In this document: positions 1,176-36,235 of the stretch, piece after piece | How positions within the stretch are numbered: position 1 is the stretch's first letter | Layout: every line of letters starts with the position of its first letter | Source: Pseudomonadota bacterium | Lineage (GTDB): Bacteria > Pseudomonadota > Gammaproteobacteria > Steroidobacterales > Woeseiaceae | DNA length: 64,000 nt | Assembly: GCA_022572185.1 (NCBI GenBank) | Contig: JACZWL010000006.1 | Coordinates: 1 to 64,000 of the forward strand | Reading direction: 5' to 3' | Translations under genes and position numbers: made by a program | The notes under the pieces: model-generated | What the model saw: only the letters and a program-made list of their open reading frames with translations | Databases searched by the model: none | What the model was told of the DNA's origin: nothing

Positions 1176-1295
1176 TTTGTCATCCGAAATTGCCAGCTTC
1201 GGATCAGTATTTTACCATTCTCTGGCAAATTCTTCTCAACAAAACGCCCCTTTTCTTAAATACTTTCAGGTGCTTATGACTTCTTCAGGGCCGAC
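1..1295 (-). mobile_element. IS5-type insertion sequence, one end inside the window
   Basis: The transposase reads leftwards out of the window, so the element's transposase-start end should lie between 1176 and the 3' end of the DUF2955 gene at 1372. A plausible terminus is the stretch around 1276-1295 (GACTTCTTCAGGGCCGA), followed directly by CTAA, a sequence IS5-group elements often duplicate on insertion. This boundary is a guess, because the opposite inverted repeat is outside the window and cannot be compared. Confidence 0.45.
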
Positions 1296-1371
1296 TAATT
1301 ACAGAGAACGAAAAGGGGTCGGAGAAGGACTCTTGTCATATTGGTCGTTTGAAATATCGCGAGTATGCGCT

Positions 1372-2475
1372 TTAGCTTTCGCGCGACGGCTTTCGCCGCC
1401 ATAGCGTGTCGAACACGAACACCGCACCGGTGCCGTAGATCGTTGCCCAGATGAACATCTGCAAGCGCGACCAGAATGCGGCATCGGCGCTTGCACCAGT
1501 CTGGCCATCCAGTACTGCGGGGGCGAGGACCACGATCATCGTCAGGTAAGCATATGACCATGTAGCGCCCGCCGGGTGCATGCCGGCACCGGCGAATATT
1601 CTCGGGCCCATGATCAGCCCGCCCAGCCCGATCAGAAGTACATATATAAGGAGTGAGGGCCAGATGCTCAAGACCTGCCAGCCCACGATCGCGCCAATAC
1701 CGCCAATGACTGTGGATAAGAGCAAAGACTTCCCCGCCTGGCGTGACTGGTCGACGCCGGCCTGCTGCCCCATCGAGGCAACCTTGATCATGAACGCAGC
1801 GTAGCTTGCACTCGCGCTGGACAACAGGAACCACAGGATCACGGGCATTACGATGACCATCGAACGCCAGGCGCTCCGGCGTGCAACGGTGAGGTCCGGC
1901 TTCTGTGCTTGCGGTTTGGCACTCGGCGCCTGCACAGATTCTGCGCGTGCCATCGAATCCGGAAGAATGGCGTGCGCCACCCATACAAACAGCACGCCGA
2001 AGACAGCTCCGGTACTCAGACCACCCGACAGTGCCAGCACGGCATCTGTCGACACGGTGCCGACTGAGGTCACGAGCGCCAGTCCGACCGTCGCGAATGC
2101 GCCGACCACCGGTGAACCGCCTCGGGCCGTGTAATAAAAGCTGTGATAGAGGGCAAGCCCCAGCAGGAGGATGCCCACCATTCTCTGATTCAGCATGAAC
2201 GGCAGGAATATCAGCCCCGCATAAATCGCAATGACGAATACGAGTACGAATTTGATGCCAGCACTTAGCCTGAGTGCCGGCAAAGGCAGCGACAGGATAA
2301 ACATCGTAAGCACTGGCGCAACAAATGACATCGGCCAGTTGACGATCTGCGAGAACAGCATCGACAGGGCAGTGCCCAGCGCCATGCGCAGGATGCGCAC
2401 GCTGGCGATACTCATGCGCCTTGCGTCAGCAGACTCAGCGCTATCGATTACTGAGGTCCTGGAATCAGAAAGCAT
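1372..2475 (-). CDS. DUF2955 multi-spanning inner membrane protein of an efflux operon
   Basis: A 367-residue very hydrophobic protein with roughly nine to ten membrane segments, beginning about residue 28 (LRMALGTALSMLFSQ) and ending near residue 355. The layout of two hydrophobic halves around a polar linker (residues ~180-205) fits the DUF2955/FUSC-like family related to aromatic acid exporters. It is the last gene of a minus-strand operon after NodT-type outer membrane factor and HlyD adaptor genes; its ATG lies 11 bp inside the end of the HlyD gene, indicating coupling. The set suggests a tripartite pump in which this protein is the inner membrane component. Substrate is unknown. The C-terminus is complete and lies close to the IS end. 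Confidence 0.75.
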   Translation of the reverse strand: MLSDSRTSVIDSAESADARRMSIASVRILRMALGTALSMLFSQIVNWPMSFVAPVLTMFILSLPLPALRLSAGIKFVLVFVIAIYAGLIFLPFMLNQRMVGILLLGLALYHSFYYTARGGSPVVGAFATVGLALVTSVGTVSTDAVLALSGGLSTGAVFGVLFVWVAHAILPDSMARAESVQAPSAKPQAQKPDLTVARRSAWRSMVIVMPVILWFLLSSASASYAAFMIKVASMGQQAGVDQSRQAGKSLLLSTVIGGIGAIVGWQVLSIWPSLLIYVLLIGLGGLIMGPRIFAGAGMHPAGATWSYAYLTMIVVLAPAVLDGQTGASADAAFWSRLQMFIWATIYGTGAVFVFDTLWRRKPSRES

Positions 2476-3607: not shown

Positions 3608-5166
3608 TGTTGCTCGCTTATGTTGCTGCGACCGGCATCCAGAAGATCGCCCCAATTTGTCCTTTCTTCCATCTCCAGTCGCGTTGCCTCGTCGACAAAT
3701 CCGTCACCAGCAGTTTGCCAACCGCCACCAAGTGCTTTGTAGACGGAAATGAGGCTGCGGATCGCAAATCCCTTGTTCGACACGTATCGCTGTTGTTGCC
3801 CAAAAAGCGCTTGCTGTGCGTCCAGCACTCGCTGATAGTCGGCAAATCCTTCCTGGTAACGGATCATGGAAAGTTCGGTGGAGCGTCTGGCTGACTGCAC
3901 CGTTTTAGTCAGTATGGCGTCCTGCTGTTGGCTGCCGACAAATGCGACCATGGCATCTTCGACTTCGCGCGCTGCCTGAATGACCGATTCCCGGTATTGC
4001 ACCAATGCCTGTTGCAAGCGCGCATCCTGCACCCGAACATTGTTCTTGATGCGACCGTAGTTCAGGAATGGCCAGACGAACGACGGCCCAACGGCGTAAG
4101 TCACACTCTCGGAGCGAAACAGCTCACCGATGCCGCTTTCCATCGTGCGCGTCGTATCTGTATTGCCCGCGGCTGCAAGGCCCAGCGAGCCGCTGATGCT
4201 GAAACTCGGATACAGGCCGGCTTTGGCGACGCCGACCTGTGCATTCTGCGCCATAGCCTGCAATTCCGCCCTTCTTACATCGGGCCGCTGTCGCAACATG
4301 TCCGCAGGAACGCCGACCATGATCTGCTCGGGTACCTCAGGTATTCGTCCCTCTCCCCCGAGGGCCTGTGACAGGTCAGCCGGCGGCAGCCCGAGCAGGG
4401 TGGCCAGCGCGTGATGGGACTGCCGCAGAGTTATTTCGAATCCCGGTATCGTAGCCCGCGTACTCAGCAACAGGGTCTGTGCCTGCTGGACATCGAGCTC
4501 ATTGCTGGCACCATACCTGTAGAGCACTTCCACGATTTCGTAGCTGCGCTCCTGCAGCGCCAGGTTCTCCCGGGCGATACGTAACTGCTCCTCAGTCGAG
4601 CGGATTACCACAGAGATAACTGCTGTCTGCGCAGTCAGCAGTACCAGCGCATCATCGTAACTGGCGATCGAGGCAAGCAGGTTTGCATCGGCCGATTCGA
4701 TACCGCGGCGGAATCGGCCCCAGAAGTCGATTTCCCACGAGGCGCTGACACCCAGGTTGTACTGCGTGTAACTGAGATCGGCACCACCGGCGGTGTTTGC
4801 ATTGCTTTCGCTGAGCCTCAGAGCCATCGCATCGCCGGCCACGATCTGCGCCTGCGGATAACGGTTGCCGAGCGCCACACCAAGGGCCGCGCGGGCTTCG
4901 AGCACCCTCAGTCCGGCTATGCGGATGTTGTTGTTGTTTTGCCGGGCGGCGGCGACCAGTTGATCAAGCACCGGGTCGTTCAGTACTCCCCACCATTCGA
5001 CCGAGTCCTGGGGCGCAAACAGAAATTCCTCCCGCGCGTACCCGGACCATTGTTCGTTCGCCTCGGACTCCGGCCGCAGGAAATCGGGCCCCACCGGTGC
5101 ACAGGCCGACACAAGGCCGGTCACCAGGATCAGGCTGGCCCGGCGAATGTCCTGGTAAATACTCAT
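3604..5166 (-). CDS. NodT/OprM-type outer membrane efflux lipoprotein
   Basis: 520 residues with a lipoprotein signal peptide; the lipobox LVSAC places the acylated Cys near residue 22. Two tandem outer membrane efflux repeats follow, including ALGVALGNRYPQ and the second-half counterpart QVGVAKAGLYPSFS, as in TolC-like trimeric channels. Length is typical for the RND-type NodT subgroup (450-520). The start lies 11 bp after the stop of the AI-2E permease gene and the stop overlaps the HlyD start, so the genes are cotranscribed. It forms the outer membrane exit duct of the predicted pump. No RND pump gene is present here. Confidence 0.9.
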   Translation of the reverse strand: MSIYQDIRRASLILVTGLVSACAPVGPDFLRPESEANEQWSGYAREEFLFAPQDSVEWWGVLNDPVLDQLVAAARQNNNNIRIAGLRVLEARAALGVALGNRYPQAQIVAGDAMALRLSESNANTAGGADLSYTQYNLGVSASWEIDFWGRFRRGIESADANLLASIASYDDALVLLTAQTAVISVVIRSTEEQLRIARENLALQERSYEIVEVLYRYGASNELDVQQAQTLLLSTRATIPGFEITLRQSHHALATLLGLPPADLSQALGGEGRIPEVPEQIMVGVPADMLRQRPDVRRAELQAMAQNAQVGVAKAGLYPSFSISGSLGLAAAGNTDTTRTMESGIGELFRSESVTYAVGPSFVWPFLNYGRIKNNVRVQDARLQQALVQYRESVIQAAREVEDAMVAFVGSQQQDAILTKTVQSARRSTELSMIRYQEGFADYQRVLDAQQALFGQQQRYVSNKGFAIRSLISVYKALGGGWQTAGDGFVDEATRLEMEERTNWGDLLDAGRSNISEQQ

Positions 5167-5177
5167 TTGCCAATCGA

Positions 5178-6290
5178 TCAGCCAGCCTCAGCCTCTTCGG
5201 CGGGCTGGCGCGGATTATTCAATTCGTCGGTCTCCATCCAGGCCACCAGGATCTCGTATCCGAGCGCCAACACAATCGCACCGATGAAAAGACCAACTAT
5301 CCCGGCCAGAATCATGCCGCCGATGGCGCCGAGCAGAATCACGAGCATGGGAGTCTCCATACCGCGTCCCAGGAACAGGGGTTTCAGGAATGAATCACTG
5401 ACGCTGACAAAGAGTGCGTAGACCGCGAATATCGTTGCCGGCACCGGATCCGCTGTTGAGAATACCCAGACCGCGATCGGCCCCAGAATGATAATCGGCG
5501 GCAATTGCATGATCGCCAGCATCAGCACGGCGAAAGTCCATATGCCCGCCGCCGGGATGTGCATGACTACCAGTCCAACCGCGGACAGCAACGCCTGAAT
5601 AATCGCGACGCCCAGAACTCCCTTGGCAACACTGCGAATGGTCTCGACGGCGAGATCGGTCAATACCTTGCCGCGCTCTCCAGCAAGACTCGAGGCAAAC
5701 GTTCGGCTCATCTTGTAGCCGCCTTCCGCACCAACCAGAAAAACGCCGGCGATGATGATTGATAAGACGAATTGAAGAATGCCGATCGCCATCGACCCGG
5801 CGAATCTGAGTACGTGGCCACCCAGCGACCTGAGTTGGTCCTCGAACTTGTTGAGCGTGCCCTCCAGATTGGCCGCTGCGCCGTTCCAGATCTCGTAGAC
5901 TTTCTCGCCAATCAACGGCCACTCTGCCACCGATGAATCCGGCGGTGATATCGACACGCTGCCTTCATCCAGGGCGGCACCAACAGTTTTCAGGGCCGCA
6001 ACCGAAGAGTCCGTGAGCGTGTATACGGGCACGAGTAGTATCATGAGCCCGAGAAACACGAAAATTGTAGCGGAGAGTTTTTCGCGCCCTCCAAGGGAGC
6101 CGGCCAGTTTGACGTGTACGGGATAAAGCGCGACGGCGATGATCATCCCCCATACGACGATCGACAGGAACGGCGCGACTATTCGGAAGCAAAAGACCAC
6201 CAGCAGCGCAACAGCCGCGATCTGGATAAATGAAGCCATCGCATTCTTCTGAAAATTGCGATCGGCAGCGGCAGTGTCTGAAATATTCAT
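5178..6290 (-). CDS. AI-2E/PerM-family membrane permease
   Basis: The ATG at 6290 is chosen because GGGG lies just upstream (GTGGGGATCAAAATG); an in-frame GTG at 6302 would add four residues. The 370-residue protein has two N-terminal hairpins (FIQIAAVALLVVF, PFLSIVVWGMII), a polar region of amphipathic helices (~residues 85-155), then a cluster of membrane segments ending in a Gly-rich helical pair (LGAIGGMILAGIVGLFIGAIVLALGYE). This is the AI-2E/PerM family plan. Family members export or exchange small molecules or ions; substrate here is unknown. It is the first gene of the efflux operon reading to 1372. The C-terminus is acidic (EEAEAG). Confidence 0.85.
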   Translation of the reverse strand: MNISDTAAADRNFQKNAMASFIQIAAVALLVVFCFRIVAPFLSIVVWGMIIAVALYPVHVKLAGSLGGREKLSATIFVFLGLMILLVPVYTLTDSSVAALKTVGAALDEGSVSISPPDSSVAEWPLIGEKVYEIWNGAAANLEGTLNKFEDQLRSLGGHVLRFAGSMAIGILQFVLSIIIAGVFLVGAEGGYKMSRTFASSLAGERGKVLTDLAVETIRSVAKGVLGVAIIQALLSAVGLVVMHIPAAGIWTFAVLMLAIMQLPPIIILGPIAVWVFSTADPVPATIFAVYALFVSVSDSFLKPLFLGRGMETPMLVILLGAIGGMILAGIVGLFIGAIVLALGYEILVAWMETDELNNPRQPAEEAEAG

Positions 6291-24909: not shown

Positions 24910-25031
24910 AAGAGCATATTCTGAGCACTGGATCACAATCTGGGCCAGGGGATGTGCAATGAAGCCGCCTATTAGCGACTATTGGCGACTAATGATCGTC
25001 AGCCCAATCAATCGTGTTTAAGGAGTAGCCG

Positions 25032-25997
25032 ATGCAGCGCGGAAGTACGCTGGAACAATTGCCCCTGGGCGCGGACGGCCAACGCGTCGCAATCGACAAT
25101 GCGCGCAAGTCCCTGGGCACAATCATTCTCGGCAAAGACGAAAAGATATCCTTAAGCATGGCCTGCCTGCTGGCGCGGGGCCATTTGTTGATCGAAGACC
25201 TGCCAGGGCTCGGCAAAACGATGCTTGCGCAGGCGCTCGCCCGCGTGCTCGGACTGAGTTATCAGCGAATCCAGTTCACCAGTGACCTTCTGCCCGCAGA
25301 CATCGTGGGCGTGTCCATATTCCGGCAAAGCGATGGCGAATTTAAGTTTCAACCGGGACCGGTTTTTGCTCAGCTGGTGCTTGCCGACGAGGTCAATCGT
25401 GCGACCCCGAAGGCGCAAAGTGCTTTGCTCGAGGCGATGGAGGAGCAGCAGGTTTCGGTGGACGGGCAGACGCATGCACTGCCGGAGCCGTTTTTTGTCG
25501 TCGCGACCCAGAACCCTTCCGACCAGATCGGGACATTTCCGCTACCCGAATCCCAGCTCGACCGTTTTCTGATGCGTCTCGAACTCGGCTATCCGAACGA
25601 AGAAAGTGAACGTGCTCTGATCACAGGTCGAGACCGGCGGCAGATGCTGGAAGAAATAGAGGCGACCCTCAGCCCCGAACTCGTGACCGAGCTTCAGGAG
25701 GCCGTCGAAAAAGTACACATGAGCGGACCGCTCGTTGATTACGTTCAGGCGCTGGTCCGGTTCACACGGGAATCACCGGATATCGAAACCGGTCTCTCGC
25801 CGCGCGGCTCCCTTGCTTTGGTGGCAGCCGCGAAAGCGCACGCCTTCATCCTGCACCATTCGGGCGTCTTTCCGGACGATGTGCAAGCCGTTTTTGCTGC
25901 CGTCGCCGGACACAGATTGAAGCCGGCAAGCGGCTCCAGCTATCGGAGTCCGGGCGAACTAAGCCGACATGTCCTCGATTCCGTGGCAATTCCCTAG
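25032..25997 (+). CDS. MoxR-family AAA+ ATPase
   Basis: 321 residues from an ATG preceded by AAGGAG. Walker A is LPGLGKTMLAQALA (~residue 58), Walker B VLADEVNRATPKAQSALLEAMEE (~115), sensor and arginine finger regions PFFVVATQNP and LPESQLDRFLMR follow. MoxR ATPases are chaperones that insert cofactors or assemble complexes, normally acting with a DUF58/VWA partner. Here the next two genes are DUF58 and a transglutaminase (TgpA type), with overlapping coding ends, so the three form one operon. Confidence 0.92.
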   Translation: MQRGSTLEQLPLGADGQRVAIDNARKSLGTIILGKDEKISLSMACLLARGHLLIEDLPGLGKTMLAQALARVLGLSYQRIQFTSDLLPADIVGVSIFRQSDGEFKFQPGPVFAQLVLADEVNRATPKAQSALLEAMEEQQVSVDGQTHALPEPFFVVATQNPSDQIGTFPLPESQLDRFLMRLELGYPNEESERALITGRDRRQMLEEIEATLSPELVTELQEAVEKVHMSGPLVDYVQALVRFTRESPDIETGLSPRGSLALVAAAKAHAFILHHSGVFPDDVQAVFAAVAGHRLKPASGSSYRSPGELSRHVLDSVAIP

Positions 25998-26982
25998 CTT
26001 CCCAGGGTTACCGTCCCTCCGCAGGGCCGTTGGCGAACGCGTCCTGCGCTGGGCGCGCAAACGTCAGGGTACCGACCGGCACCAGACACGGCTGCATTCG
26101 AAGCGAATCTATATCCTGCCGACGGGCGTCGGTCTCGTGTTCGCGCTCATGAGCTTCGCGATGCTGCTGGGCTCGATGAACTACAACAATAATCTATCGT
26201 TCGTTCTGACGTTCTTGCTGGCAGGGCTTGGGCTGGTGTCGATGCACCAGTGCCAACGCAACCTGGTCGGCCTCGAGTTGCGTTTTGCCGGTGTCGATCC
26301 GGTATTCGCCGGACAGTCAGCCAAGTTCAGAATCGCGATTACCAATCGTTCCAAGAACAGCCGATACCATATCCAGTTGTATGCTGGAACGGTGTTAAGC
26401 GAGGTGCAAGACCTCGGACCGGGAGACAGTCGGGTTTTTCAATTGCCACTACCGACTGAAAAACGCGGTCATATCACGCTCGAGCGCTTCGGCATCAGAA
26501 CCCTTTTCCCTTTCGAATTGTTTCGCTCCTGGGCCTGGTTACACATGGACCTGCAGGGTCTCGTCTACCCAAGGCCCGCGGCCGAAGCGCCGGAGCCTCC
26601 ACCGACGCAATCTGCACATGGCCACCGGCAACATGATGCGCGGGGAGAGGAAGATTTTGCAGGACTGAGGAGATTTCAAGACGGCGACTCGCCACGTCAC
26701 GTCGCGTGGAAAGCCTACGCACGTAGCGGCGAGCTCTTCTCGAAACAGTTTGCAGGCGCGGACACGAGCAGCCAGTGGTTCGATTTTGATCACGTCGATA
26801 CAGAGGATCTCGAACAACGACTGTCGGTGATGACGCGTTGGATAATCAACGCAGACAGGACACACCGTGACTACGGCGTGCGCATACCGGGCTCCGAGTT
26901 CCCGCCGGCGCACGGCGAGTCTCATCGCCACGCCTGCCTGGAGGCGCTCGCCGTATTCAATGGGGGCCACGTGAATGGTTAA
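25969..26982 (+). CDS. DUF58 domain protein
   Basis: 337 residues with two N-terminal membrane segments (~residues 47-62 and 66-84, after a basic stretch RVLRWARKRQ). A beta domain comes next (~95-170), then the DUF58 signature DFAGLRRFQDGDSPRHVAWKAYARSGELFSKQF at ~225-257. It starts 29 bp before the MoxR stop and its stop overlaps the transglutaminase start by 8 bp. DUF58 proteins are partners of MoxR ATPases; the role in this operon is unknown. Confidence 0.88.
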   Translation: MSSIPWQFPSFPGLPSLRRAVGERVLRWARKRQGTDRHQTRLHSKRIYILPTGVGLVFALMSFAMLLGSMNYNNNLSFVLTFLLAGLGLVSMHQCQRNLVGLELRFAGVDPVFAGQSAKFRIAITNRSKNSRYHIQLYAGTVLSEVQDLGPGDSRVFQLPLPTEKRGHITLERFGIRTLFPFELFRSWAWLHMDLQGLVYPRPAAEAPEPPPTQSAHGHRQHDARGEEDFAGLRRFQDGDSPRHVAWKAYARSGELFSKQFAGADTSSQWFDFDHVDTEDLEQRLSVMTRWIINADRTHRDYGVRIPGSEFPPAHGESHRHACLEALAVFNGGHVNG

Positions 26983-28942
26983 GCGAACCGGTACTGACGG
27001 ATCGCTGCTGGCCAGTTTGCCCTGGACCCTGGCAGCACTGGCGTTTTCGCTGGCGCCGCATGTGCAATTCCTGCCGGTTTGGATAACAGTCGCGTTTCTG
27101 GCCTGTGCCGGCTGGCGATGGGACATCGAGCGCCACCGCCGAGCTCTGCCGCGCCCCTGGCTCCGTGTTGTACTGGCCCTGGTATGTTTCCTCGGCGTGC
27201 TTGCTTCATACGAGTCGGTAAGCGGCGTCGGCCCGGGCTCCGCGCTGTTGGCAATTATGGCCGCATTGAAATTGCTCGAGACTCGCAAGCGGCGCGATCA
27301 GTTCGTACTTCTCTTCATATCGATTTTTCTGGTCATGGCCTCGTTGCTCCGTGAGCAGTATCTCTGGTCATTGCCCTATCTGATTCTCGCAGTCGTTTTG
27401 ACGATGACGGCCTGGCTAAGGATGTCCCTGGCCGACGACGGCGGCGAGACCAGTGTCAAGCAGAGCTTCAAAACCGCTGGCCGTCTGATGCTGTATGCAA
27501 CTCCGCTGATGCTCGCCATGTGGATTCTGTTTCCAAGAATCGCAACACCATTCTGGGCTATTCCTGTCGATACCAGTAGTGCCACATCGGGACTGAGTGA
27601 CCGCATGAGCCCCGGCGATATCAGCTCGCTCTCGCTCTCGGACGCGGTTGCTTTCAGGGTCAAGTTCGATGGCGACGCACCTGATCCGATTGACCGGTAC
27701 TGGAGAGGACTTGTCCTGTATCGGTTCAATGGCCGGACCTGGTCCGGGTGGGAACCGATCATGGCTCGAAGCGCGAGGGAAGAACTTCTTGTCGCGGGTG
27801 AACCTGTGCGTTATCAGGTAACAATGGAGCCGACCCGGCAGCAGTGGGTATTCGCATTGGACATACCTTTTGAGTGGTCCAGGAGCGAGATTTTCATGGG
27901 ACCACAACACCAGCTTGCGAAGGAACAGCCGATAGACCAACGTATGGCTTACCAGGCCACTTCGTACACCCGATATCAAATTACTCCGAAAATGACGTCG
28001 TATTCCCGGACCCGGTACACGAGACTGCCAGCCAAGAGCAACCCGCGTACAGTGGAACTTGCACAAAGCATGCGGCGCGCCAGCGAAGACGACGAATCAT
28101 TCGCCAAAGCTGTTTTACAAAGGTTTCACGAAGAAGAATATTTCTACACTCTCCGGCCGCCCGCACTCGGCAGCAATCCTGTCGATCGCTTCATGTTTGA
28201 TACACGCCGCGGTTTTTGCGAACACTATGCTTCCGCATTTGCCGTAATGATGCGCGCAGTCGGTATCCCGTCTCGTATCGTATTGGGCTACCAGGGCGGC
28301 GAAATGAATCCGATGGGCCGCTACCTGATTGTCAGGCAAGCCGATGCGCACGCGTGGACGGAGATCTGGCTGCCGAATCGCGGCTGGCACCGGGTTGACC
28401 CAACTGCAGCTGTCGCGCCCGAGCGTATCGAGTTTGGTATAACGGGGGCAATGTTATCCGGCATAGCCGCAAGCTGGGGGCTTGCCGCGCCGATCGCGTT
28501 CGTACATCGCATGGGACTGACCTGGGATGCTTTGAACGCCAAATGGAACGACTGGATTCTCGGTTACGGGCCGGATAAACAGGACTCGTTCCTGGAGTGG
28601 CTCGGCATGGACGAGCCCGACTGGCGGAAGATGATGTTGACGCTGACCTTCCTGATTGCCGCCCTCGTCGGCCTGATCAGTCTCGTCCTGATGATGCGGT
28701 ACCGACCGCCGCCGAAAGACCATGCTGCCTTGTTGTACAAGAAATTTACGCGGAAAGCCGGCTTAGTCCCGAACTGCGGGGAAACGCCGCAGGACTATGC
28801 GAGCCGATTAGGCCAGGACGGAGAAGAACTCGCCGCCGGCGCAGACCGAGTGACCGCACAGTACCTGTCAGCGCGCTACGGGCCACCGAACCCGGCAGCA
28901 ATGGACTTGCTGAGAGCCGCCGTCGCCGGATTCAAAAACTAG
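26975..28942 (+). CDS. TgpA-type membrane transglutaminase-like protein (DUF3488)
   Basis: 655 residues. The N-terminal DUF3488 region has about six membrane helices (~10-185), followed by a periplasmic domain and a transglutaminase-like core with Cys in RRGFCEHYASAFAVMMRAVGIPSRIVLGYQGG (~418), His in ADAHAWTEIW (~455) and Asp in RVDPTAAV. One more helix (~550-572) precedes a cytoplasmic DUF4129-like tail. Homologous TgpA of Pseudomonas aeruginosa is essential there and has transglutaminase activity; the substrate here is unknown. Last gene of the MoxR-DUF58-TgpA operon. Confidence 0.9.
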   Translation: MVKRTGTDGSLLASLPWTLAALAFSLAPHVQFLPVWITVAFLACAGWRWDIERHRRALPRPWLRVVLALVCFLGVLASYESVSGVGPGSALLAIMAALKLLETRKRRDQFVLLFISIFLVMASLLREQYLWSLPYLILAVVLTMTAWLRMSLADDGGETSVKQSFKTAGRLMLYATPLMLAMWILFPRIATPFWAIPVDTSSATSGLSDRMSPGDISSLSLSDAVAFRVKFDGDAPDPIDRYWRGLVLYRFNGRTWSGWEPIMARSAREELLVAGEPVRYQVTMEPTRQQWVFALDIPFEWSRSEIFMGPQHQLAKEQPIDQRMAYQATSYTRYQITPKMTSYSRTRYTRLPAKSNPRTVELAQSMRRASEDDESFAKAVLQRFHEEEYFYTLRPPALGSNPVDRFMFDTRRGFCEHYASAFAVMMRAVGIPSRIVLGYQGGEMNPMGRYLIVRQADAHAWTEIWLPNRGWHRVDPTAAVAPERIEFGITGAMLSGIAASWGLAAPIAFVHRMGLTWDALNAKWNDWILGYGPDKQDSFLEWLGMDEPDWRKMMLTLTFLIAALVGLISLVLMMRYRPPPKDHAALLYKKFTRKAGLVPNCGETPQDYASRLGQDGEELAAGADRVTAQYLSARYGPPNPAAMDLLRAAVAGFKN

Positions 28943-29276
28943 TCGACGACAAATGAGGCGCAGGCCACCGCTCCGGGGACTCAATCACGAATCTGACAAA
29001 GCCCTGTGATTTCCCCTGTCTGCTTTCGTCTTATTGTGCCGAGAAACTCTTTTTCGCGGCCGATGAAAAAAATCCTGGTTCCTCAGGCGAATAACTGCCT
29101 CGTATCCGTCTTGCTGCGCCGTTACCTTACATAAAATATGACGCAGTTCCATGTCATAGGCGTGATGCAGGCGGACGACACCAGCGATGTTTTCTGTCAA
29201 ATTGTGACAACAGTAACAGTATCGGAACGCGGTATGCTTTAGTCGCCGCTGCCCGCATCCTGATGGGTTGTCGAGT
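28943..29276. other. Intergenic region with upstream copy 1 of a duplicated block
   Basis: 334 bp between tgpA and the first cell wall hydrolase gene. Positions ~29083-29219 hold copy 1 of a repeat found again before the second hydrolase (29957-30095). A minus-strand frame (28985-29284, 99 codons) crosses it but no product was recognised. No tRNA or terminator with a T tract was found. Confidence 0.6.
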
Positions 29277-29284
29277 ATGTTCAA
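28985..29284 (-). CDS. Doubtful 99-residue ORF antisense to the hydrolase leader
   Basis: An open frame, basic, His- and Arg-rich, with HNLTENIAGVVRLHHAYDMEL and ILCKVTAQQDGYEAVIRL. The related block upstream of the second hydrolase can be read in the same strand and frame as CHNLTEIISDVVRLHHADHVELRRILCKVAA, then meets TAG TAA. Several of the changes between copies are synonymous, which weakly favours a coding past, but many are not. No known family recognised. It could equally be a regulatory DNA block that happens to be open. Confidence 0.2.
   Translation of the reverse strand: MNILDNPSGCGQRRLKHTAFRYCYCCHNLTENIAGVVRLHHAYDMELRHILCKVTAQQDGYEAVIRLRNQDFFHRPRKRVSRHNKTKADRGNHRALSDS
29083..29219 (+). 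repeat. Duplicated upstream block, copy 1
   Basis: About 137 bp aligning without large gaps to 29957-30095 at roughly 75-80% identity by eye. The best-kept parts are CCTTACATAAAATA-GACGCAGTTC, GGCGTGATGCAG-C-ACGACA-CAG and TTTCTGTCA-ATTGTG-CAACA. It ends about 57 bp before the first hydrolase start codon. A shared cis-regulatory region is the simplest reading. Confidence 0.8.
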
Positions 29285-29864
29285 TTCTCTGCTATACAGA
29301 GCGAGTTCATTGCCTGCTGTTTTGCGGCGTTATTCGCCCTATTCCTGGCTCAGCTGGCACGCCGACGATCTGACTTTCTTCACGCTGCTGGGCCTGCCGG
29401 TCGTAATGCTCGGCTTGATGTTCCGCTTTGCTTACACGGACCATCTTCAGGTTGAATCAGAGCAACGACGCTTTGCGGATCTTACCTGTCTTGCCCGAAA
29501 CATATACTTCGAAGCAAGAGGCGAGCCTATGGCAGGTCAATACGCAGTCGCCGAAGTCACCATGAACCGCGTCGCATCCAAGCGTTTCCCCGGGACCGTC
29601 TGTGCGGTCGTCCATGAGGCGAGGTGGGATAGGATTCGGAAGCGCTATGTCGGTGCCTTTTCCTGGACAGAACTGGACTCTGTGCCAAGGCCGAAAGAAG
29701 TTCCCTGGGAACTGGCGACGTTGGTAGCCGTTGCGACCTACGACAATCAAGAAGCACTCAAAGTCCCCGGAGCATTGTTCTTTCATGCCGACCGTATTGC
29801 CCCTCGCTGGTCAACAACAAAGAAACTCGTCGCGCAGATCGGTGCGCACAAATTTTACGAGTGA
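29277..29864 (+). CDS. SleB-type cell wall hydrolase with N-terminal membrane anchor
   Basis: 195 residues from ATG 29277; a TTG at 29268 is an alternative. A hydrophobic segment (~33-50, FFTLLGLPVVMLGLMFRF) anchors it in the inner membrane facing the periplasm. The Hydrolase_2 (SleB) domain begins LTCLARNIYFEARGEPMAGQYAVAEVTMNRV, with the catalytic Glu expected in YFEARGE (~residue 82), and ends ALFFHADRIAPRW and QIGAHKFYE. SleB-type enzymes are lytic transglycosylases that cut peptidoglycan; this branch is vegetative, not spore-linked. It lacks the Cys residues of the second copy's CQFSWWC segment, reading GAFSWTELDS instead. Confidence 0.85.
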   Translation: MFNSLLYRASSLPAVLRRYSPYSWLSWHADDLTFFTLLGLPVVMLGLMFRFAYTDHLQVESEQRRFADLTCLARNIYFEARGEPMAGQYAVAEVTMNRVASKRFPGTVCAVVHEARWDRIRKRYVGAFSWTELDSVPRPKEVPWELATLVAVATYDNQEALKVPGALFFHADRIAPRWSTTKKLVAQIGAHKFYE

Positions 29865-30199
29865 AATCGCCTCGATAAGATTTTCTTCCTGGCAATGTTT
29901 GCACGTTAAGCAAGTCAAAAGTAGACATTCTCGAGTGATTGGACAATAAGCGCTCGTCAGACGAATGGCTGCCTCGCATTCGTTTTACTACGCCGCTACC
30001 TTACATAAAATACGACGCAGTTCGACGTGATCGGCGTGATGCAGACGAACGACATCAGAGATGATTTCTGTCAGATTGTGGCAACAAATAACAAAAACGG
30101 TTGCCTGATTTCACCTGCTGCCATCCCTGGCCGAGCAGGTGCAGGCGAAAACCACTGATTCTGAAAGAACAGGTTCGCATCAGTTTCGAGGATCCGGAC
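29865..30199. other. Intergenic region with upstream copy 2 of the duplicated block
   Basis: 335 bp between the two SleB-type genes. Copy 2 of the block (29957-30095) occupies the middle, followed by a ~100 bp leader to the second gene's ATG with the ribosome site GAGGAT. No other gene, RNA or terminator found. Confidence 0.6.
29957..30095 (+). repeat. Duplicated upstream block, copy 2
   Basis: The counterpart of 29083-29219, in the same orientation and likewise upstream of a SleB-type gene, about 105 bp before its start. Shared landmarks are CTTACATAAAATACGACGCA, the GGCGTGATGCAGACGA segment and TTTCTGTCAGATTGTGGCAAC. Indicates a segmental duplication including the promoter region. Confidence 0.8.
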
Positions 30200-30688
30200 A
30201 TGAAGAACGCACAGCGGGGATTCACACTGATAGAACGCATGATCGCCGTAGCCATCATTGGTATTGTCGCTCCGTTGTGCGCGGGCAATGTCAATGCTCA
30301 ATCCCTGGGGGAGGAGCAGAATTGTCTCGCACTTTCGATTTACTGGGAGGCAAGAGGAGAAATTCGTCGCGGCATGATCGCCGTGGGATGGACAGTGCTC
30401 AATCGCACGCGAAGTGAGCATTTCCCATCGAAACTTTGCGACGTCGTGCATCAAGGCGGTGAACAGGGACCCTGTCAGTTCTCCTGGTGGTGTGACGGGA
30501 AGAGCGACAGACCACGGGATCGAGACAGCTGGGCAGCGGCCCTCCTGTTATCTGCCAGGCTGTTGGTTGACCCGCCGCCGGATCCGACCGGCGGCGCACT
30601 GTTCTACCACAGCACATATATTCCGTTGCCCTGGAGGCGAAAGCGCATCCGAACCGCCCAGATTGGCGGACACGTATTTTATCGCTAG
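30200..30688 (+). CDS. SleB-type cell wall hydrolase with a type IV prepilin leader
   Basis: 162 residues from the ATG at 30200 (ribosome site GAGGAT). The N-terminus KNAQRG|FTLIERMIAVAIIGIVA is a near-perfect type IV prepilin signal: a short basic leader, Gly at the cleavage site, Phe+1, Glu+5 and the hydrophobic N-terminal pilin helix. After ~30 residues the sequence changes to the Hydrolase_2 domain: CLALSIYWEARGEIRRGMIAVGWTVLNR (catalytic Glu ~57), CDVVHQGGEQGPCQFSWWCDGK and ALFYHSTYIPLPW. The domain resembles the first SleB gene and E. coli-type vegetative SleB proteins. The leader should be cut by prepilin peptidase and could place a lytic transglycosylase in a type IV pilus or type II secretion assembly, but NVNAQS might also be read as a signal peptidase I site. 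Confidence 0.85.
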   Translation: MKNAQRGFTLIERMIAVAIIGIVAPLCAGNVNAQSLGEEQNCLALSIYWEARGEIRRGMIAVGWTVLNRTRSEHFPSKLCDVVHQGGEQGPCQFSWWCDGKSDRPRDRDSWAAALLLSARLLVDPPPDPTGGALFYHSTYIPLPWRRKRIRTAQIGGHVFYR

Positions 30689-30737
30689 GATTATTGAGTC
30701 AGATTGGGCCGACCATAGTGAGGGGGGCTAAATCCTG

Positions 30738-31148
30738 TTATTGCGGTCTTCCCAACTTATGCGCCCCCCTATTACTATCGAACTTGGCGTCATTTGCAAA
30801 ACCGAGCCGACACATGGTTTCGATCCAATTGATCACCGTAGCCTCATCCATTCGGATCGGTGTTGTCCAGCCGGTTGTCATGAATAGGGCGGAATCGCCC
30901 GCAGATTCGCCGAACCGTGAGTCGTATCCTAAATCCACGAGTTTCGAGTTCAAGGCTTCGGCATTTGCCGACTTGTTGGTGTAAAAGAAAAATTCCAGGC
31001 GAAGTTCACGATCCTCGTGCTCTCGGAACTGCGCGAGAGCTTGACGAGTCATAGAGACCTGTCTGGCCAGGTTCGTCTCAAACTGTGCCTCGGTCTGATA
31101 TGGATCGGACGAACTTTTCGAGCCAAAAAGCTTGTCGAATATGCTCAC
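30738..31148 (-). CDS. RraB-like (ribonuclease E inhibitor B domain) protein
   Basis: 136 residues. An N-terminal lysine/serine-rich segment (FDKLFGSKSSSDPYQT) and a helix lead into the RraB-type alpha/beta domain: LRLEFFFYTNKSANAEALNSKLVDLGYDSRF, WTTPIRMDEATVINWIETMCRLGFANDAKFD. RraB of E. coli binds the C-terminal scaffold of RNase E and modulates mRNA decay. Distant members with this FFFYT start occur widely without tested function, so role is inferred. Its C-terminus is close to, and convergent with, the second hydrolase gene. Confidence 0.7.
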   Translation of the reverse strand: MSIFDKLFGSKSSSDPYQTEAQFETNLARQVSMTRQALAQFREHEDRELRLEFFFYTNKSANAEALNSKLVDLGYDSRFGESAGDSALFMTTGWTTPIRMDEATVINWIETMCRLGFANDAKFDSNRGAHKLGRPQ

Positions 31149-31325
31149 AAGTTTTACCCGCTTGGCGGGGATTCGCTGCAGCTGCGGTACACAATGACCA
31201 CTCCCAGACTCAGCTCAAGAGTTTGTATGGCGTCGGCCGCAGCCCTTTTCCACGATGAGATGAACATTTCCAATACACTTATTTCCCGGTACCACCATTC
31301 CAGGTATGCCTTGCAATGACGGCGC

Positions 31326-31481
31326 TCAGCTATCAGGACAGTTGGGCTCGTAACACTTGCGGCAGTCCGGGCAATAGCTGTATGTCTTACAGCTGGGACA
31401 TTCATCGCAGGGGCTCTTATGCTCGCTGCAGTAACGTAGCTTCCTGGTTGCAGGTGCTTGTTCTGAGGGATCGCTCGGCAT
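31326..31481 (-). CDS. 51-residue Cys-rich putative zinc-binding protein
   Basis: Start ATG 31481 is set by AAGGAG six bases upstream. After a polar N-terminus (SDPSEQAPATRKLR) it holds eight Cys residues in 33 positions: YCSEHKSPCDECPSC, then YCPDCRKCYEPNC, with a His, in CxxC-like pairs. This would bind two zinc ions or an iron-sulfur cluster. No family recognised. It sits alone, minus strand, between the RraB-like and MFS genes. The longer frame upstream to 31742 overlaps the MFS stop and is not credible. Confidence 0.6.
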   Translation of the reverse strand: MPSDPSEQAPATRKLRYCSEHKSPCDECPSCKTYSYCPDCRKCYEPNCPDS

Positions 31482-31689
31482 TTGATTCTCCTTGAGTATC
31501 TGTTGCGCCGACATTACATGGGCGCCCAACAGCTTATGAACGGACAATATTATCAGTATTTTAATCCTCGGTTTTGATGAGCTCCAGGTGCTGCGAACCT
31601 CCGCCTTGGATCGACAGCAGATATTTTGCCTTTGTTTTTGCAGCGGCGTGACGAGCCAGGTGTTTGCCCGAAAGGAAGCCCAGGGCGAG
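31482..31689. other. Gene-free stretch between MFS and Cys-rich genes
   Basis: 208 bp between the stop of the MFS gene and the start of the Cys-rich gene, both on the minus strand. AT-rich part 31540-31570 may hold the promoter of the small gene. No stable terminator with a T run is obvious. Confidence 0.3.
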
Positions 31690-32985
31690 TCATGACGTAT
31701 CTTCGTTTTGGGCTCCCCCTGATTTGTTCGCTCTCTCTCCATCTTGTTTCACGCGCGTCAGCGCCAGCATGCCTACGATGAACAACGGTATTAGAGCGGC
31801 CAAGATATATTTCGGTTTGTCGCTAAACATGGCAACCATAAATACCAGGAACGGGCCCAGTATGTGCGCGAACTTCGTGAGCATGTTGTAAAAGCCGAAA
31901 AACTCACCGGATCGTTCCGGCGGGATCAGGGATGCGTAAAGCGCACGGCTCATGCCCTGTACGCCGCCTTGTACCAGCCCGATCGTAATCGCCATCGCAT
32001 AGAACTGTCGGACATCGTCGAGAAACGCGGCCCAGCAGGCTACGCTGATATAGACGGTAAGCCCAAGATAAATCGCATTTTTTTCACCGAAGCGATGGCC
32101 GAGCGCACCGTAGGCAAGCGTCGCCGGAAAGCCGACAAAGTTGGTAATCAACAATGCGGTCACGAGATCAGCCGAACTGAAACCGAGACGCTGACCGAAA
32201 TTGACCGCCATGAATATTACGGTGAACACACCATCGATATACAGCCAGTAAGCAATCAGGAAAAGCAGGACGTTTCGGTACTTGCTGATTTCCCTGAAGG
32301 TGTCCATCAAAGCCCCGTATGCCGCCCGGACTGTGCCTCCTCCAGCGATGGCGGTAGCTTTGCCCTCACGAACGATGAACATGAGCGGCAGGAGAAAGAC
32401 AATCCACCAAATGCCGACGGATATGAACGCAAACTTGACGACCTGCGCGATATCGGCGAAACCGAACGCCTCCGGTGTGCGCAGCATCCACACATGCAAC
32501 GCAAGCAGAGATGCACCGCCGAAATAGCCCAGGGAAAAGCCCAGAGAGGAAACCAGGCTGTAATACCGCGGATTGCTGACGTCGACGATCAGCGAGTCAT
32601 AAAATACGTTGGCGCTGTAGTAGCCGATCGAGGCCAGCATGAAAAGAGCAAGCGCCCAGGGCCAACCACCCTCGTCAATCAGACTCAGGCCGGCCGTTGC
32701 AACCGCACCAAGTACGGCAAGAACAAAAAGGAAGCGTTTCCGATACCCGCCGCTGTCCGCAATAGCTCCAAGCACCGGCGCCATCACGGAGACGACAATA
32801 CTGGCACACACGGTCACCAATGCCAGTCGTGCGGTGACCGTTGAACCCTCTTCACCGATACTCCAGTAACTGCCGAGAAAAAGTGGAAACAAGACTGCCA
32901 GAACACTCAACGCGAACGCCGAGTTGCCCCAGTCGTAGAGCGCCCACGCCATTACCTGCCGATTGAAGATGCTCGATCGAATCAT
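31690..32985 (-). CDS. UMF1-type MFS transporter
   Basis: 431 residues, about 12 membrane helices. The start FNRQVMAWALYDWGNSAFALSVLAVLFPLF is the UMF1/Atg22-like signature. The MFS loop motif appears as GYRKRFLFVLAVLG, and the conserved VQGGVQGMSRALYASLIPPERSGEFFGFYN follows in the second half. Bacterial members are predicted amino acid or small solute exporters; substrate is not known. It follows prfC on the same strand by 14 bp and is probably cotranscribed with it. Confidence 0.85.
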   Translation of the reverse strand: MIRSSIFNRQVMAWALYDWGNSAFALSVLAVLFPLFLGSYWSIGEEGSTVTARLALVTVCASIVVSVMAPVLGAIADSGGYRKRFLFVLAVLGAVATAGLSLIDEGGWPWALALFMLASIGYYSANVFYDSLIVDVSNPRYYSLVSSLGFSLGYFGGASLLALHVWMLRTPEAFGFADIAQVVKFAFISVGIWWIVFLLPLMFIVREGKATAIAGGGTVRAAYGALMDTFREISKYRNVLLFLIAYWLYIDGVFTVIFMAVNFGQRLGFSSADLVTALLITNFVGFPATLAYGALGHRFGEKNAIYLGLTVYISVACWAAFLDDVRQFYAMAITIGLVQGGVQGMSRALYASLIPPERSGEFFGFYNMLTKFAHILGPFLVFMVAMFSDKPKYILAALIPLFIVGMLALTRVKQDGERANKSGGAQNEDTS

Positions 32986-32999
32986 CGCTTTGATACCGG

Positions 33000-34580
33000 T
33001 CAGTGCTCTCTCGTCTCGAGGAAACGAATATCCGGCCAGCGCTCCTCGGTAAGGCTGAGGTTCACCCTGGTCGGCGCGATGTAAACGAGACTTTCCCCGT
33101 GATCCAGCGCGAGGTTATCGTGCGCCTTTCTCTTGAACTCACTGAGTATCCTGTCATCGTCTGCCTCAACCCATCTGGCAGTCGCAACGTTGACTGGTTC
33201 GAACAGGCAATCGACTTTGTATTCGTACTGCAAGCGATGGGCAACGACTTCGAATTGCAATGGACCGACAGCCCCGAGAATTAGATCGTTGTTTCGCAGC
33301 GGCCTGAATAACTGAGTCGCGCCCTCCTCGCACAACTGCGCCAGGCCCTTTTTCAGGGCCTTGAGCCTGAATGGATCCTTCAATACCGCGCGTTTAAAGA
33401 TTTCCGGTGCGAAATTCGGAATGCCGGAGAATCGAATTGCCTCCCCTTCTGAGAAACTGTCGCCGATATTGATCGTTCCATGATTATGCAGGCCGATGAT
33501 ATCGCCCGCGTAGGCCGTCTCCGTATGCTGCCGGTCTGCAGCCATGAATGTAATCGCATCGGCAATCTTCATTTCTTTACCGGAACGAACATGCGTCAGC
33601 CGCATGCCTTTTTGAAATTTCCCGGAACAAATCCGCATGAATGCTATACGGTCGCGGTGAGCCGGATCCATGTTTGCCTGGATCTTGAATACAAAACCTG
33701 TCATCTCATTTTCATTTGCTTGAATCGTGCGTGCGTCACTTTCGCGGGGACCCGGGGGTGGCGCGATATCGATAAACTCGTCAAGCAATTCTTTGACGCC
33801 AAAATTCGAGATCGCCGAACCAAAGAACACAGGCGTCTGTTTCGCCGCCAGATAGTCCTTGATGCTGAGTTGCGGACACCCGCCCTTGACGAGTTCGATT
33901 TCCTCGCGAAAACTTGTTGCGTCATTGCCGAGAATCTCTTTGGCCATCGTCGATTCCAGGTCATCGATGATTTCGATCTCCGATGCCCGGCCCCGGCCGG
34001 CACCGGTGTAAAGGTAAATCCTGTCCTGCAGCAGATGGTAAACGCCCTTCAAAGAACGCCCCATGCCGATCGGCCAGGTTACCGGCGAACAATCGATATT
34101 CAGTACTGATTCGATCTCGTCCAGCAGATCGATCGGTTCCCGTCCATCGCGGTCGAGCTTGTTGATAAACGTCATGATCGGCGTGTCACGAAGGCGGCAG
34201 ACATCCATCAACTTGATCGTTCGCTGCTCCACACCCTTGGTGCAATCAATGACCATCAGCGCCGAATCGACCGCTGTCAGAGTTCGGTAAGTATCTTCAG
34301 AGAAATCTTCGTGGCCTGGCGTGTCCAGCAAATTGATAATGCAGTCACGATACGGGAACTGCATGACCGAAGACGTTATGGAAATGCCCCGCTGCTGCTC
34401 CAGCGCCATCCAGTCTGACGTGGCATGGCGGCTGGCCTTTCGGCCCTTGACCGTCCCGGCGAGCTTGATCGCGCCGCCGAACAGCAGAAGCTTTTCAGTA
34501 AGGGTCGTCTTGCCAGCGTCGGGATGCGAGATAATCGCAAAGGTTCGCCGCCGGCTGACCTGTTGTTCGATATCGGACAT
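33000..34580 (-). CDS. prfC: Peptide chain release factor 3
   Basis: 526 residues from the ATG at 34580; an in-frame ATG at 34607 would add nine. GTPase motifs are intact: G1 HPDAGKTT, G3 [13 protein letters not shown]4 NKLDRDG, with the [12 protein letters not shown] switch region. RF3-specific domain II and III follow ([22 protein letters not shown]). RF3 recycles RF1/RF2 from terminated ribosomes using GTP. Length agrees with E. coli RF3 (529). No clear Shine-Dalgarno precedes either start. Confidence 0.95.
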
Positions 34581-34641
34581 TGGTTTTTGATGTGCGCTAA
34601 CGCGCATTTGATCGAATGGCGGCGCAGTCTAGCAGGAAAAC

Positions 34642-34676
34642 GGGACAGACCCGGGGACAGACCCGGGGTCTGTCCC
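34642..34676. repeat. GGGACAGACCC repeat with palindrome
   Basis: Two direct copies of GGGACAGACCC followed by GGGGTCTGTCCC, so the second copy and the reverse half form a near-perfect hairpin (about 11 bp stem). This core is a common interspersed palindromic unit in proteobacterial genomes. It lies between the rimI stop and the prfC start, both minus strand, and may end or attenuate the upstream transcript; there is no U-tract. AAATTAA follows on the rimI side. Confidence 0.8.
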
Positions 34677-34679
34677 AAA

Positions 34680-35156
34680 TTAATCGTTATATTTCAGTGT
34701 CTTGGCGAAAACGGCAGCATCTTCCCTGCCTGCGTTCGCCTGATAATAAGCCGGCCGGTTGGCGATCTGCCGAAAGCCCTGTTTGCGATACAGGGACAAG
34801 GCGCTCGAATTTGTTGGCCGTACCTCCAGAAACACTTCTTTGACATCGGCTGTTCTGGCCCGCCCCAGGATTTCGCTCAGTAATCGATCGCCATAACCGA
34901 GCTCCCGGTATACTGGATCCACGCAGAGATTGAGGATATGAGCTTCCCCCGCCGCGACGGATAAGACGCCGTAGCCGGCTATCTCTTCCCCGCGTACCAG
35001 CACAATGCACTGATATCCGGCCAGGAGACAATCACGGAAGACATCGTGACTCCAGGGAAACTCATAACTGCGGCGCTCGATATCGGAGACCAGCGGCAAA
35101 TCGTCATGGATCATGGATCGGATATGCGCCGGGACCTGGGGTGCAGGGCTGATCAT
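34680..35156 (-). CDS. rimI: Ribosomal protein S18 alanine N-acetyltransferase
   Basis: 158 residues from the ATG at 35156, overlapping the TGA of the uracil-DNA glycosylase gene as ATGA. GNAT fold: motif A acetyl-CoA loop is YRELGYGDRLLSEIL (~residue 82) following AHILNLCVDPVYR; C-terminal ALSLYRKQGFRQIANRPAYY is typical of RimI. It acetylates the N-terminal Ala of S18. Neighbour order with a family 4 uracil-DNA glycosylase is common in gammaproteobacteria. Confidence 0.9.
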   Translation of the reverse strand: MISPAPQVPAHIRSMIHDDLPLVSDIERRSYEFPWSHDVFRDCLLAGYQCIVLVRGEEIAGYGVLSVAAGEAHILNLCVDPVYRELGYGDRLLSEILGRARTADVKEVFLEVRPTNSSALSLYRKQGFRQIANRPAYYQANAGREDAAVFAKTLKYND

Positions 35157-35842
35157 GTCGGCGATTCTTGCACTACCTGCCTCGCAAGGCACAAGTCTTC
35201 CCAAACCTTTCTTTTCTGAGAAGGACTACGCAACAGATAAGCAGGATGATACGTCACGACGAGCGGTACCTGACCGTTATTCAGGGTGTGGACCCGGCCC
35301 CGCAAGCGGCCCAGCGGCGAATCCGTGTGCAATAACTGCTGCGCCGCAATGCGACCAACGGCCAGGATCAGCCGGGGCCTGATCATCTCGATCTGACGCT
35401 CGAGATAGCCCCGACAGGCCGCCGCCTCGTCGGCCGCCGGGTCACGGTTGCTCGGCGGCCTGCATTTCAGGATGTTGGTAATAAACACGGTACTGCGATC
35501 GAGTTCCACGGCCCGCAGCATTTCATCCAGCAGTTTTCCGGCCCTGCCGACGAACGGTTCCCCACGGCGATCCTCCTCGGCCCCCGGCGCTTCGCCAATG
35601 ATCATCCAGTCCGCATCCCGATTTCCCACGCCGAAGACTGTCTGCGTACGGCACTGATGCAATGGGCAGCGCGTACAGCCGGCAACGCTTGCCTGCAGCT
35701 CGGTCCAGTCCGGCACCGGTTCGTCGGCAGTCACCGCGACCTCGACAAGGTCCGGCACCGATTGACCGGCTTGCTCACGCGGCACCCAGACGTCGATACC
35801 GAGCGCCTCCAGGTATTGCATCCTTTCACGCTCAGCCGGCAT
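35153..35842 (-). CDS. Family 4 uracil-DNA glycosylase with a psi-like N-terminal motif
   Basis: 229 residues from the ATG at 35842. The iron-sulfur uracil glycosylase core starts at [18 protein letters not shown], with the motif 1 [30 protein letters not shown] and the motif 2 HPAYLLR. It excises uracil from DNA for base excision repair. The N-terminal ~20 residues ([18 protein letters not shown]) resemble the chi-binding end of DNA polymerase III psi (LGI-x-x-W), and no holD gene is seen in the window; holC is. The stop overlaps the rimI start; the start overlaps the pssA remnant by 11 bp. Confidence 0.88.
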
Positions 35843-36235
35843 TACCCGTTCCGCCCGTTGACCGCAGCGCCTGCCTGCGCCATAGCCAGTAGATCGGGCC
35901 GGACGCCGCGTACGCCCCGAACAGGAGCAGCAAGACGACCAGCGGATCAAGAGCAATTAGTATGAAAATCAATACGATACCTACTAAATACGCAAACGGT
36001 ATGCGGCCTCCGAGCTTGACCTCTTTGCAGCTGTAGTAACAGAAACGGGACACCATGAGTATCCCCGCCGCGGCCGTGACGACGAATGCCAATGCAAGGC
36101 CGCCAAGTCCGGCCAGTTCCAGCTCACTGCCAAGCCAGACAAATGCCGCAACAGCGCGGCTGTCGTCAAGAGATTGGGCAACAGGAAGATGCCTCGTCGC
36201 CTGAATTTTTTCTCGACCGGAGTCATATGACCCAT
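35832..36235 (-). pseudogene. pssA: Phosphatidylserine synthase remnant with an internal deletion
   Basis: From ATG 36235 or 36226 the frame gives TPVEKKFRRRGIFLLPNLLTTAAL, the standard PssA N-terminus, for about 25 codons. Beyond ~36152 that frame turns into nonsense, while the next frame reads AAFVWLGSELELAGLGG and then VTAAAGILMVSRFCYYSCKEVKLGGRIPFAY, the standard PssA C-terminus, to the stop at 35832. The middle ~120-150 codons, which should hold the CDP-alcohol phosphotransferase motif DG-x2-AR-x8-G-x3-D-x3-D, are absent and the junction also shifts frame. It cannot make a working enzyme. An intact pssA should exist elsewhere. Confidence 0.85.

Follow-up and report, generated by a model that had tools for sequence, protein, structure and literature searches.

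The chimeric gene and its host

The window, i.e., the whole stretch of 64,000 nucleotides analysed here (contig JACZWL010000006.1 of the Woeseiaceae assembly GCA_022572185.1), carries on its forward strand a gene that joins a prepilin leader to a SleB-type cell wall hydrolase. A SleB paralogue, sleB1, lies directly upstream, and each of the two hydrolase genes has its own copy of a DNA block in front of it. The features are listed below in window coordinates with their basis in brackets; G022 denotes one of the 107 Woeseiaceae genomes compared.

29080-29212, + strand: copy of the upstream block before sleB1 (block searches)
29277-29864, + strand: sleB1, SleB paralogue, 36% identical, with an N-terminal hydrophobic anchor recognised by eye (Pfam, comparison)
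29945-30142, + strand: upstream block, probably a pilin-type 5' region (four genome copies; right-hand limit by eye)
30176-30199, + strand: 5'UTR of prepilin origin; a plausible ribosome-binding site, GAGGA, lies at 30188-30192 (ungapped match to the 5'UTR of the G022 pilA-type gene)
30200-30688, + strand: chimeric gene, prepilin leader plus SleB-type cell wall hydrolase, 162 aa (ORF list, Pfam, NCBIfam)
30200-30220, + strand: leader peptide MKNAQRG, predicted PilD cut after Gly7 (TIGR02532, PF07963)
30221-30271, + strand: prepilin-derived hydrophobic helix FTLIERMIAVAIIGIVA (G022 pilA DNA match stops at 30265; modelled helix 10-26)
30265-30274, + strand: fusion junction, about codons 22-25 (pilin DNA match ends; orthologue alignment resumes downstream)
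30290-30298, + strand: signal peptidase I-type site VNA, predicted to be cut between Ala33 and Gln34 (motif in orthologue columns)
30347-30349, + strand: Glu50 in YWEARGE (same column as the Glu of the SleB structures 4f55/4fet)
30356-30682, + strand: Hydrolase_2 (SleB catalytic) domain (Pfam; Foldseek to 4fet/4f55, E about 1e-5)

The closest counterparts of sleB1 itself, L029 (G053) and L027 (G060), are about 56% identical to it. Downstream of the chimeric gene, a short ORF on the minus strand (31326-31742) ends in a cysteine-rich C-terminal stretch, CSEHKSPCDECPSCKTYSYCPDCRKCYEPNCPDS, which looks zinc-ribbon-like by eye.

The ATG at 30200 starts MKNAQRG-FTLIERMIAVAIIGIVAPLCAGNVNAQS..., and the N-terminus reads MKNAQRG-FTLIERMIAVAIIGIVAPLCAGNVNA-QSLGEEQNC, with a candidate PilD site after Gly7 and a candidate signal peptidase I site after Ala33. 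The profile PF07963 (N_methyl) matches residues 3-24 with 30.5 bits against a gathering score of 21.2 (E 2.4e-7, Pfam), TIGR02532 scores 28.5 bits on the leader against a cut-off of 16.3 (NCBIfam), and PF07486 (Hydrolase_2) matches residues 53-161 with 81.8 bits against a cut-off of 27, covering the whole profile (1-100, Pfam). The RG-FTLIE leader and hydrophobic helix on a SleB domain, reported in the first-pass annotation of this DNA, are real, with N_methyl and Hydrolase_2 both above their cut-offs. What stands is the leader and the first part of the helix and not the whole pilin module, as Arg occupies position +6 and the modelled helix spans residues 10-26 only; judged from the model, ORF 30200-30688 has a prepilin leader joined to a portion of alpha1N.

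The AlphaFold model (24 sequences, mean pLDDT 81) consists of a helix (residues 10-26), a low-confidence stretch (27-31) and then the SleB domain, and it lacks the pilin module, i.e., an alpha1 of about 50 residues plus a beta-sheet head. The structure prediction proposed earlier as a check thus bears out helix and hydrolase domain, but yields neither a long alpha1 nor a pilin head. Below E 0.001, Foldseek matches the model to the SleB catalytic domains 4fet and 4f55 only (3 chains, E 1.2e-5 to 2.3e-5), and none of its 38 matches is a pilin. In a sequence comparison with the PDB, these two SleB structures again come first (E 5.9e-7 and 3.8e-6), followed by weak matches to pilin chains in the leader region only (E 0.02-0.79). 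Glu50 corresponds by alignment to the ExRGE glutamate of solved SleB (4f55/4fet), is invariant in all 24 aligned members, and is the residue we take to be the catalytic Glu of SleB. As far as model and alignment tell, SleB fold and Glu50 are intact in the chimeric protein, which on the same grounds belongs to the Hydrolase_2/SleB cell wall hydrolases, with a putative lytic activity on peptidoglycan.

PMC4471445 defines class III signals by 21 predominantly hydrophobic residues interrupted by Glu5. The chimeric protein has a hydrophilic leader ending in Gly, followed by Phe and Glu5; it is mostly hydrophobic over 22 residues, with Glu+5 kept and Arg at +6, a position held by Leu, Ile or Val in 17/17 host prepilins. 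Arg at +6 and Pro at +18 interrupt the hydrophobic run of the helix, so that its longest stretch without any of D/E/K/R/N/Q/H/P counts 11 residues, compared to 16-23 in the 15 host prepilins parsed. None of the prepilins parsed has a lower mean hydropathy over positions +6 to +25 than the chimera (1.60), but because this value nearly equals that of the host prepilin L197 (1.61), hydropathy alone leaves a pilin-like helix possible. The alignment script covered 12 of the 17 host prepilins (it missed L197, L198, L200, L205 and L207), and the hydropathy set covered 15, without L192 (a duplicate motif) and L205; their +6 residues were read separately.

The host genome is a draft of 99 contigs and 3.14 Mb with one prepilin peptidase domain over the cut-off, on C88. 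Apart from the chimeric gene and one weak non-pilin match, the 19 places found leave 17 other prepilin genes, 16 of them over the Pfam cut-off and one just under it; four lie close together on C31 and resemble a type II-like set by eye. No pil or gsp gene was noted beside the chimeric gene in the region listed (25000-36000). The suggestion that the enzyme is delivered to a type IV pilus or type II machine found no support here, and Arg at +6 and the absent pilin head speak against assembly into a filament.

Descent of the 5' end and the upstream block

The stretch 30176-30265, which comprises 24 nt of 5'UTR and codons 1-22, matches a pilA-type gene of G022 without gaps (80% over 90 bp, E 4.7e-17); the protein of this gene has 142 residues and is 57% identical to the host pilin on C61. 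With 30165-30275 as the DNA query, matches occur in 27 of the 107 family genomes at E<=0.01, the own genome counted, and the best outside the own genome is G022. Each of the 19 related loci that were read (L263-L281) shows a prepilin motif where the match lies; at two loci it belongs to a short truncated frame. The DNA matches of the 19 stop between 30264 and 30274. G022 alone covers all 24 nt of the UTR, while the matches at the other loci are mainly coding and include the UTR partly or not at all. Further upstream, 165 bases (29970-30134) are collinear with the region in front of the G022 pilA-type gene (66%, with E 1e-7 when just the two sequences are compared), although G022 is absent from the family-wide block search with 29945-30100 at E<=0.001 (107 genomes).

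Within the own genome, the best non-self match to 30150-30290 is an orphan pseudopilin-like gene on C31 (70% over 71 bp, E 0.017), and it likewise starts 24 nt before the ATG. These 24 nt agree at 17 positions with two host pilin genes only, those on C31 and C61. In a survey of 3191 24-mers upstream of ATGs (34 own-genome loci, overlapping ones included), five self copies score 24, four pilin copies score 17 (C31 three times, C61 once), and the next best score is 14.

Because UTR, leader and upstream stretch all match a pilA-type gene, the prepilin motif is not a product of chance. Judged by these alignments, the 5'UTR, ribosome-binding site included, has a common origin with a pilA-type 5' end, as have codons 1 to 22-24 and, probably, the upstream block. 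We interpret the DNA match to the UTR, leader and upstream stretch as the capture of a pilin 5' end by a hydrolase gene; the leader accordingly descends from a class III (prepilin) leader and sits on a SleB-type hydrolase, which supports the first-pass annotation on this point. Over codons 1-24 the chimeric gene differs from the G022 gene by 7 synonymous and 6 nonsynonymous changes, and over codons 7-12 (GFTLIE) by 2 synonymous and no nonsynonymous ones. The unchanged GFTLIE would also fit selection keeping the PilD site, but it is not evidence of selection after the fusion, because most of the synonymous changes may predate it.

The C31 gene was considered as the donor and rejected, since G022 matches UTR and leader better (80% over 90 bp vs 70% over 71 bp). 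The upstream block of G022 (66%) is in turn less alike than that of C31 (82%), so that neither gene is the donor itself. The surroundings give no match: ten proteins of the window found no counterpart in the orthologue flanks (about 1.5-4 kb), the SleB pair itself excepted, and the ORFs of the window of at least 120 aa have none in the G022 pilA, C31 or C61 regions.

The core of the block occurs at four places in the own genome, before the chimeric gene, sleB1, the C31 pseudopilin-like gene and a gene for a protein of about 150 aa on C3, and these copies are 80-85% identical. Across the family, a block of 100-200 bp is present in 7 of 107 genomes, the own one counted, and weakly in G022 in addition (block loci L220, L221, L224-L229 and L263). 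The genes it precedes are unrelated: pilins, the two SleB hydrolases, the 150-aa family and a probable radical SAM gene. In G102, G078, G073 and G043 the genes behind it are related to the C3 gene (L226, L227, L228, L229); their proteins are 48-57% identical to that of the own genome (G000), and a C3-type gene may be the ancestral place of the block. In G053 the gene that follows resembles a radical SAM enzyme (named by eye).

Two of the host genes behind the block can be described further. The orphan pseudopilin-like gene (L283 in G000, 4838-5293, minus strand) encodes MKKEQRGFTLLELL... and has the block and 17 of the 24 positions of the 5'UTR in common with the chimera. The C3 protein (L220 in G000, 968-1471, minus strand), a conserved one, has a signal-like N-terminus, and the block lies upstream of its gene in five genomes.

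The block is probably a control region, and its distribution looks like that of a shared control region or a mobile promoter; that the pilin and the two hydrolases are co-regulated through it is a guess. A structured RNA element was likewise considered for the upstream region and rejected: Rfam gave no match at E<=1 over 28900-30800, and single-sequence folds of ten block copies are without an obvious common structure by eye.

The junction and the relatives of the hydrolase

Relatives of the chimeric protein at E<=1e-5 occur in 21 of the 107 family genomes, the own genome counted; its genus is represented by one genome in this comparison. The sixteen closest orthologue places are 57-71% identical, and in all sixteen the match starts at query residue 9 at the earliest. 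Where their N-termini are readable, they look like ordinary Sec signal peptides or lipoprotein signals; L024 is interrupted by an internal stop, several orthologue start codons are uncertain, and some rows start at a contig end. Among the 24 aligned members, a Pfam scan finds Hydrolase_2 in every one and N_methyl in the chimeric protein only (30 homologues were parsed and 23 aligned, leaving out L113, L127, L130, L132, L134, L135 and L137).

The search for other FTLIE-Hydrolase_2 fusions, recommended in the first-pass annotation, found none among 182 + 27 relatives beyond the own genome. A prepilin regular expression flagged a single one of these rows, L180, which we reject as a prepilin leader because its GLSLTE is embedded in a long N-terminal stretch and no helix follows. 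The set of 182 (186 as printed, minus 2 self rows and 2 sleB1 rows of the own genome) includes many near-identical viral contigs or the same genome twice; rows were retained only where the alignment reached query residue 100. The 27 rows include the N-termini retrieved in a class-level search, in which 26 of 369 genomes had relatives. Among 80 of the 421 viral loci none was flagged by the regular expression; the GTDB relatives were represented by the best 80 of at least 554. Plasmids and phages gave 91 and 1247 records, of which two near full-length plasmid matches were read (H1 Sphingomonas, H20 Priestia), and the prepilin leader is absent from both. By its distribution, the leader is peculiar to one genome among the relatives read, and rarer fusions elsewhere are possible.

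The transition from pilin to hydrolase sequence falls within a few codons. The G022 match stops at codon 22 (30265), and from about codon 25 the chimeric protein aligns without gaps to its closest orthologues (PLCAGNVNAQSLGEEQNC vs SLYAKDVDARSLQDEQQC in L110), which leads us to conclude that the ancestral c-region of the signal peptide was probably retained. In the columns of V31-N32-A33, position -3 is A, G, S or V and position -1 is Ala (11) or Gly (1) in all 12 close orthologues aligned (L009, L017, L110-L112, L114-L118, L120, L121). The remaining 11 members of the alignment comprise 7 lipoprotein-like ones and 4 with A-x-A or V-x-A in the same column or one off, as read by eye. The lipobox label stems from a rough regular expression: L009 has both a lipobox-like LIAC and SSA-H, and L122 and L133 are lipoprotein-like by eye though unlabelled.

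With n-, h- and c-regions and small residues at -3 and -1, the chimeric protein by motif fits the rule for Sec signals cut by signal peptidase I. Part of what had been raised against the prepilin interpretation is therefore found, namely relatives with Sec or lipoprotein-like signals and a site of the signal peptidase I type, but the leader is prepilin by descent and not a random Sec peptide. The predicted cut lies at VNA-QS, after Ala33, one residue before the NAQ-S cut put forward in the first-pass annotation.

Export, processing and significance of the fusion

The reading we prefer, and consider probable though by no means assured, is that of a periplasmic SleB-type hydrolase that is exported by means of a chimeric signal, released by signal peptidase I and has its expression driven from a pilin-type upstream region. 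An ordinary exported SleB-type hydrolase gene would have gained a pilA-type 5' end that included the block, the UTR, the ribosome-binding site in it and the codons up to about 24. The n-region of the old Sec signal and most of its h-region would have given way, in frame, to the prepilin part, and the old c-region with its signal peptidase I-type site would have stayed behind. Prepilins also use Sec/SRP, and the leader may well act as an export signal; signal peptidase I, to judge by the motif, would then cut at VNA-QS and release a soluble periplasmic lytic enzyme. Processing by PilD, which cuts on the cytoplasmic side (PMC4471445), is possible as well, and the enzyme would still not be kept on the pilus: a PilD cut is compatible with a free enzyme because a later signal peptidase I cut would still release the hydrolase. 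The chimeric gene would be expressed under pilin-type control. The sequence comparisons establish the origin of UTR and leader, the junction, the kept signal peptidase I-type site, an intact hydrolase domain and the presence of a prepilin peptidase gene, whereas the evidence for a pilin origin is weaker in the case of the upstream block; the preferred reading as a whole is drawn from one draft genome, with cleavage by signal peptidase I taken from the motif.

We also have to consider that the protein functions as a class III protein, cut by PilD after Gly7, with the helix in the inner membrane and the hydrolase opening the peptidoglycan near the base of a pilus or type II machine, a reading that deserves attention but that we find considerably less probable. 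The prepilin motif is complete and over the cut-offs and the GFTLIE codons are unchanged at the protein level, but a signal peptidase I-type site comes right after the helix, which is broken by Arg at +6 and Pro at +18 and has a longest run of 11 residues vs 16-23 in 15 host prepilins. Its mean hydropathy is near that of one host prepilin, yet the model shows neither alpha1C nor a pilin head. The host has a PilD-family gene and prepilin genes, including the four on C31, and the upstream region captured is of pilin type; no pil or gsp gene was, however, noted nearby (25000-36000), and the fusion is known from one genome. An analogue for such a role is LytF of Streptococcus sanguinis, which PMC13192262 describes as a wall hydrolase that raises extracellular pilin in a Gram-positive and for which an opening of the wall for the filament is proposed. 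That capture of a pilin promoter-and-leader cassette made the lyase a PilD substrate, produced under pilin control and held by its N-methylated helix at the pilus or type II base so as to open the wall at the crossing point of the machine, appears more doubtful still. Very improbable, in our view, is that the enzyme is a modular pilin with a hydrolase domain that the leader brings into a pilus or pseudopilus. Modular type IV pilins are numerous, with over 1,200 proteins and 264 architectures that include many grafted non-pilin domains, predicted peptidases among them (PMC8179133), but they have the pilin module first, whereas the chimera has only about 17 alpha1N residues, with a charged one at +6, before loop and hydrolase.

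Two further explanations concern the origin of the join. An assembly or binning chimera of a pilin 5' end and a hydrolase gene would fit a draft of 99 contigs in which the upstream block is repeated and from which a pilin gene may be absent. Since the block copies are just 80-85% alike, the best other leader match in the genome reaches 70%, and the join is in frame inside the signal peptide and leaves a full-length enzyme with its signal peptidase I-type site, the sequence itself makes misassembly unlikely. Convergence, i.e., the drift of an ordinary Sec signal peptide into a prepilin motif, could account for a motif seen in one genome only, but the homology extends to 24 untranslated nucleotides and the upstream stretch; the UTR and pilA DNA match in effect refutes an origin by chance or convergence, to which we attach next to no probability.

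Among known systems, the modular pilins PilB and PilC of S. sanguinis resemble the chimera in combining IPR012902/N_methyl with a domain not specific to pili, and in both cases the fusion was acquired ("grafting"; PMC8179133, PMC9934059). Modular pilins as described there keep the pilin module before the graft, whereas the chimera retains only the leader and about 17 helix residues, followed by a signal peptidase I-type site, and has Arg at +6. We do not file it as a modular pilin because the N-terminal motif is present but the pilin module absent; the N_methyl + SleB architecture may already be among the 264 of PMC8179133. With the SleB/Hydrolase_2 proteins of Proteobacteria and with Bacillus SleB (4f55, 4fet), the chimera has the catalytic domain, the fold and the aligned Glu50 in common, but these relatives have Sec-, lipoprotein-like or other N-termini in place of a prepilin-derived signal and upstream region. 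Peptidoglycan hydrolases of the BfpH and VirB1 types assist pili or secretion machines, and such enzymes are not known to carry a prepilin leader. A description of a prepilin-SleB fusion was not found in the literature searched, to which most subscription journals did not belong.

The preferred reading makes the chimeric gene a natural example of an enzyme whose class I signal has been replaced by a class III leader; the junction is placed to within a few codons, and a gene related to the donor has been identified. A PilD site and a signal peptidase I-type site lie 26 residues apart on the same protein, so that the competition between the two peptidases lends itself to a simple test. Should PilD prevail, the opening of peptidoglycan could be coupled to pilus or type II secretion system assembly through a single fusion. 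The upstream block held in common suggests, moreover, that hydrolase genes and a pilin-like gene of this bacterium use a common control region.
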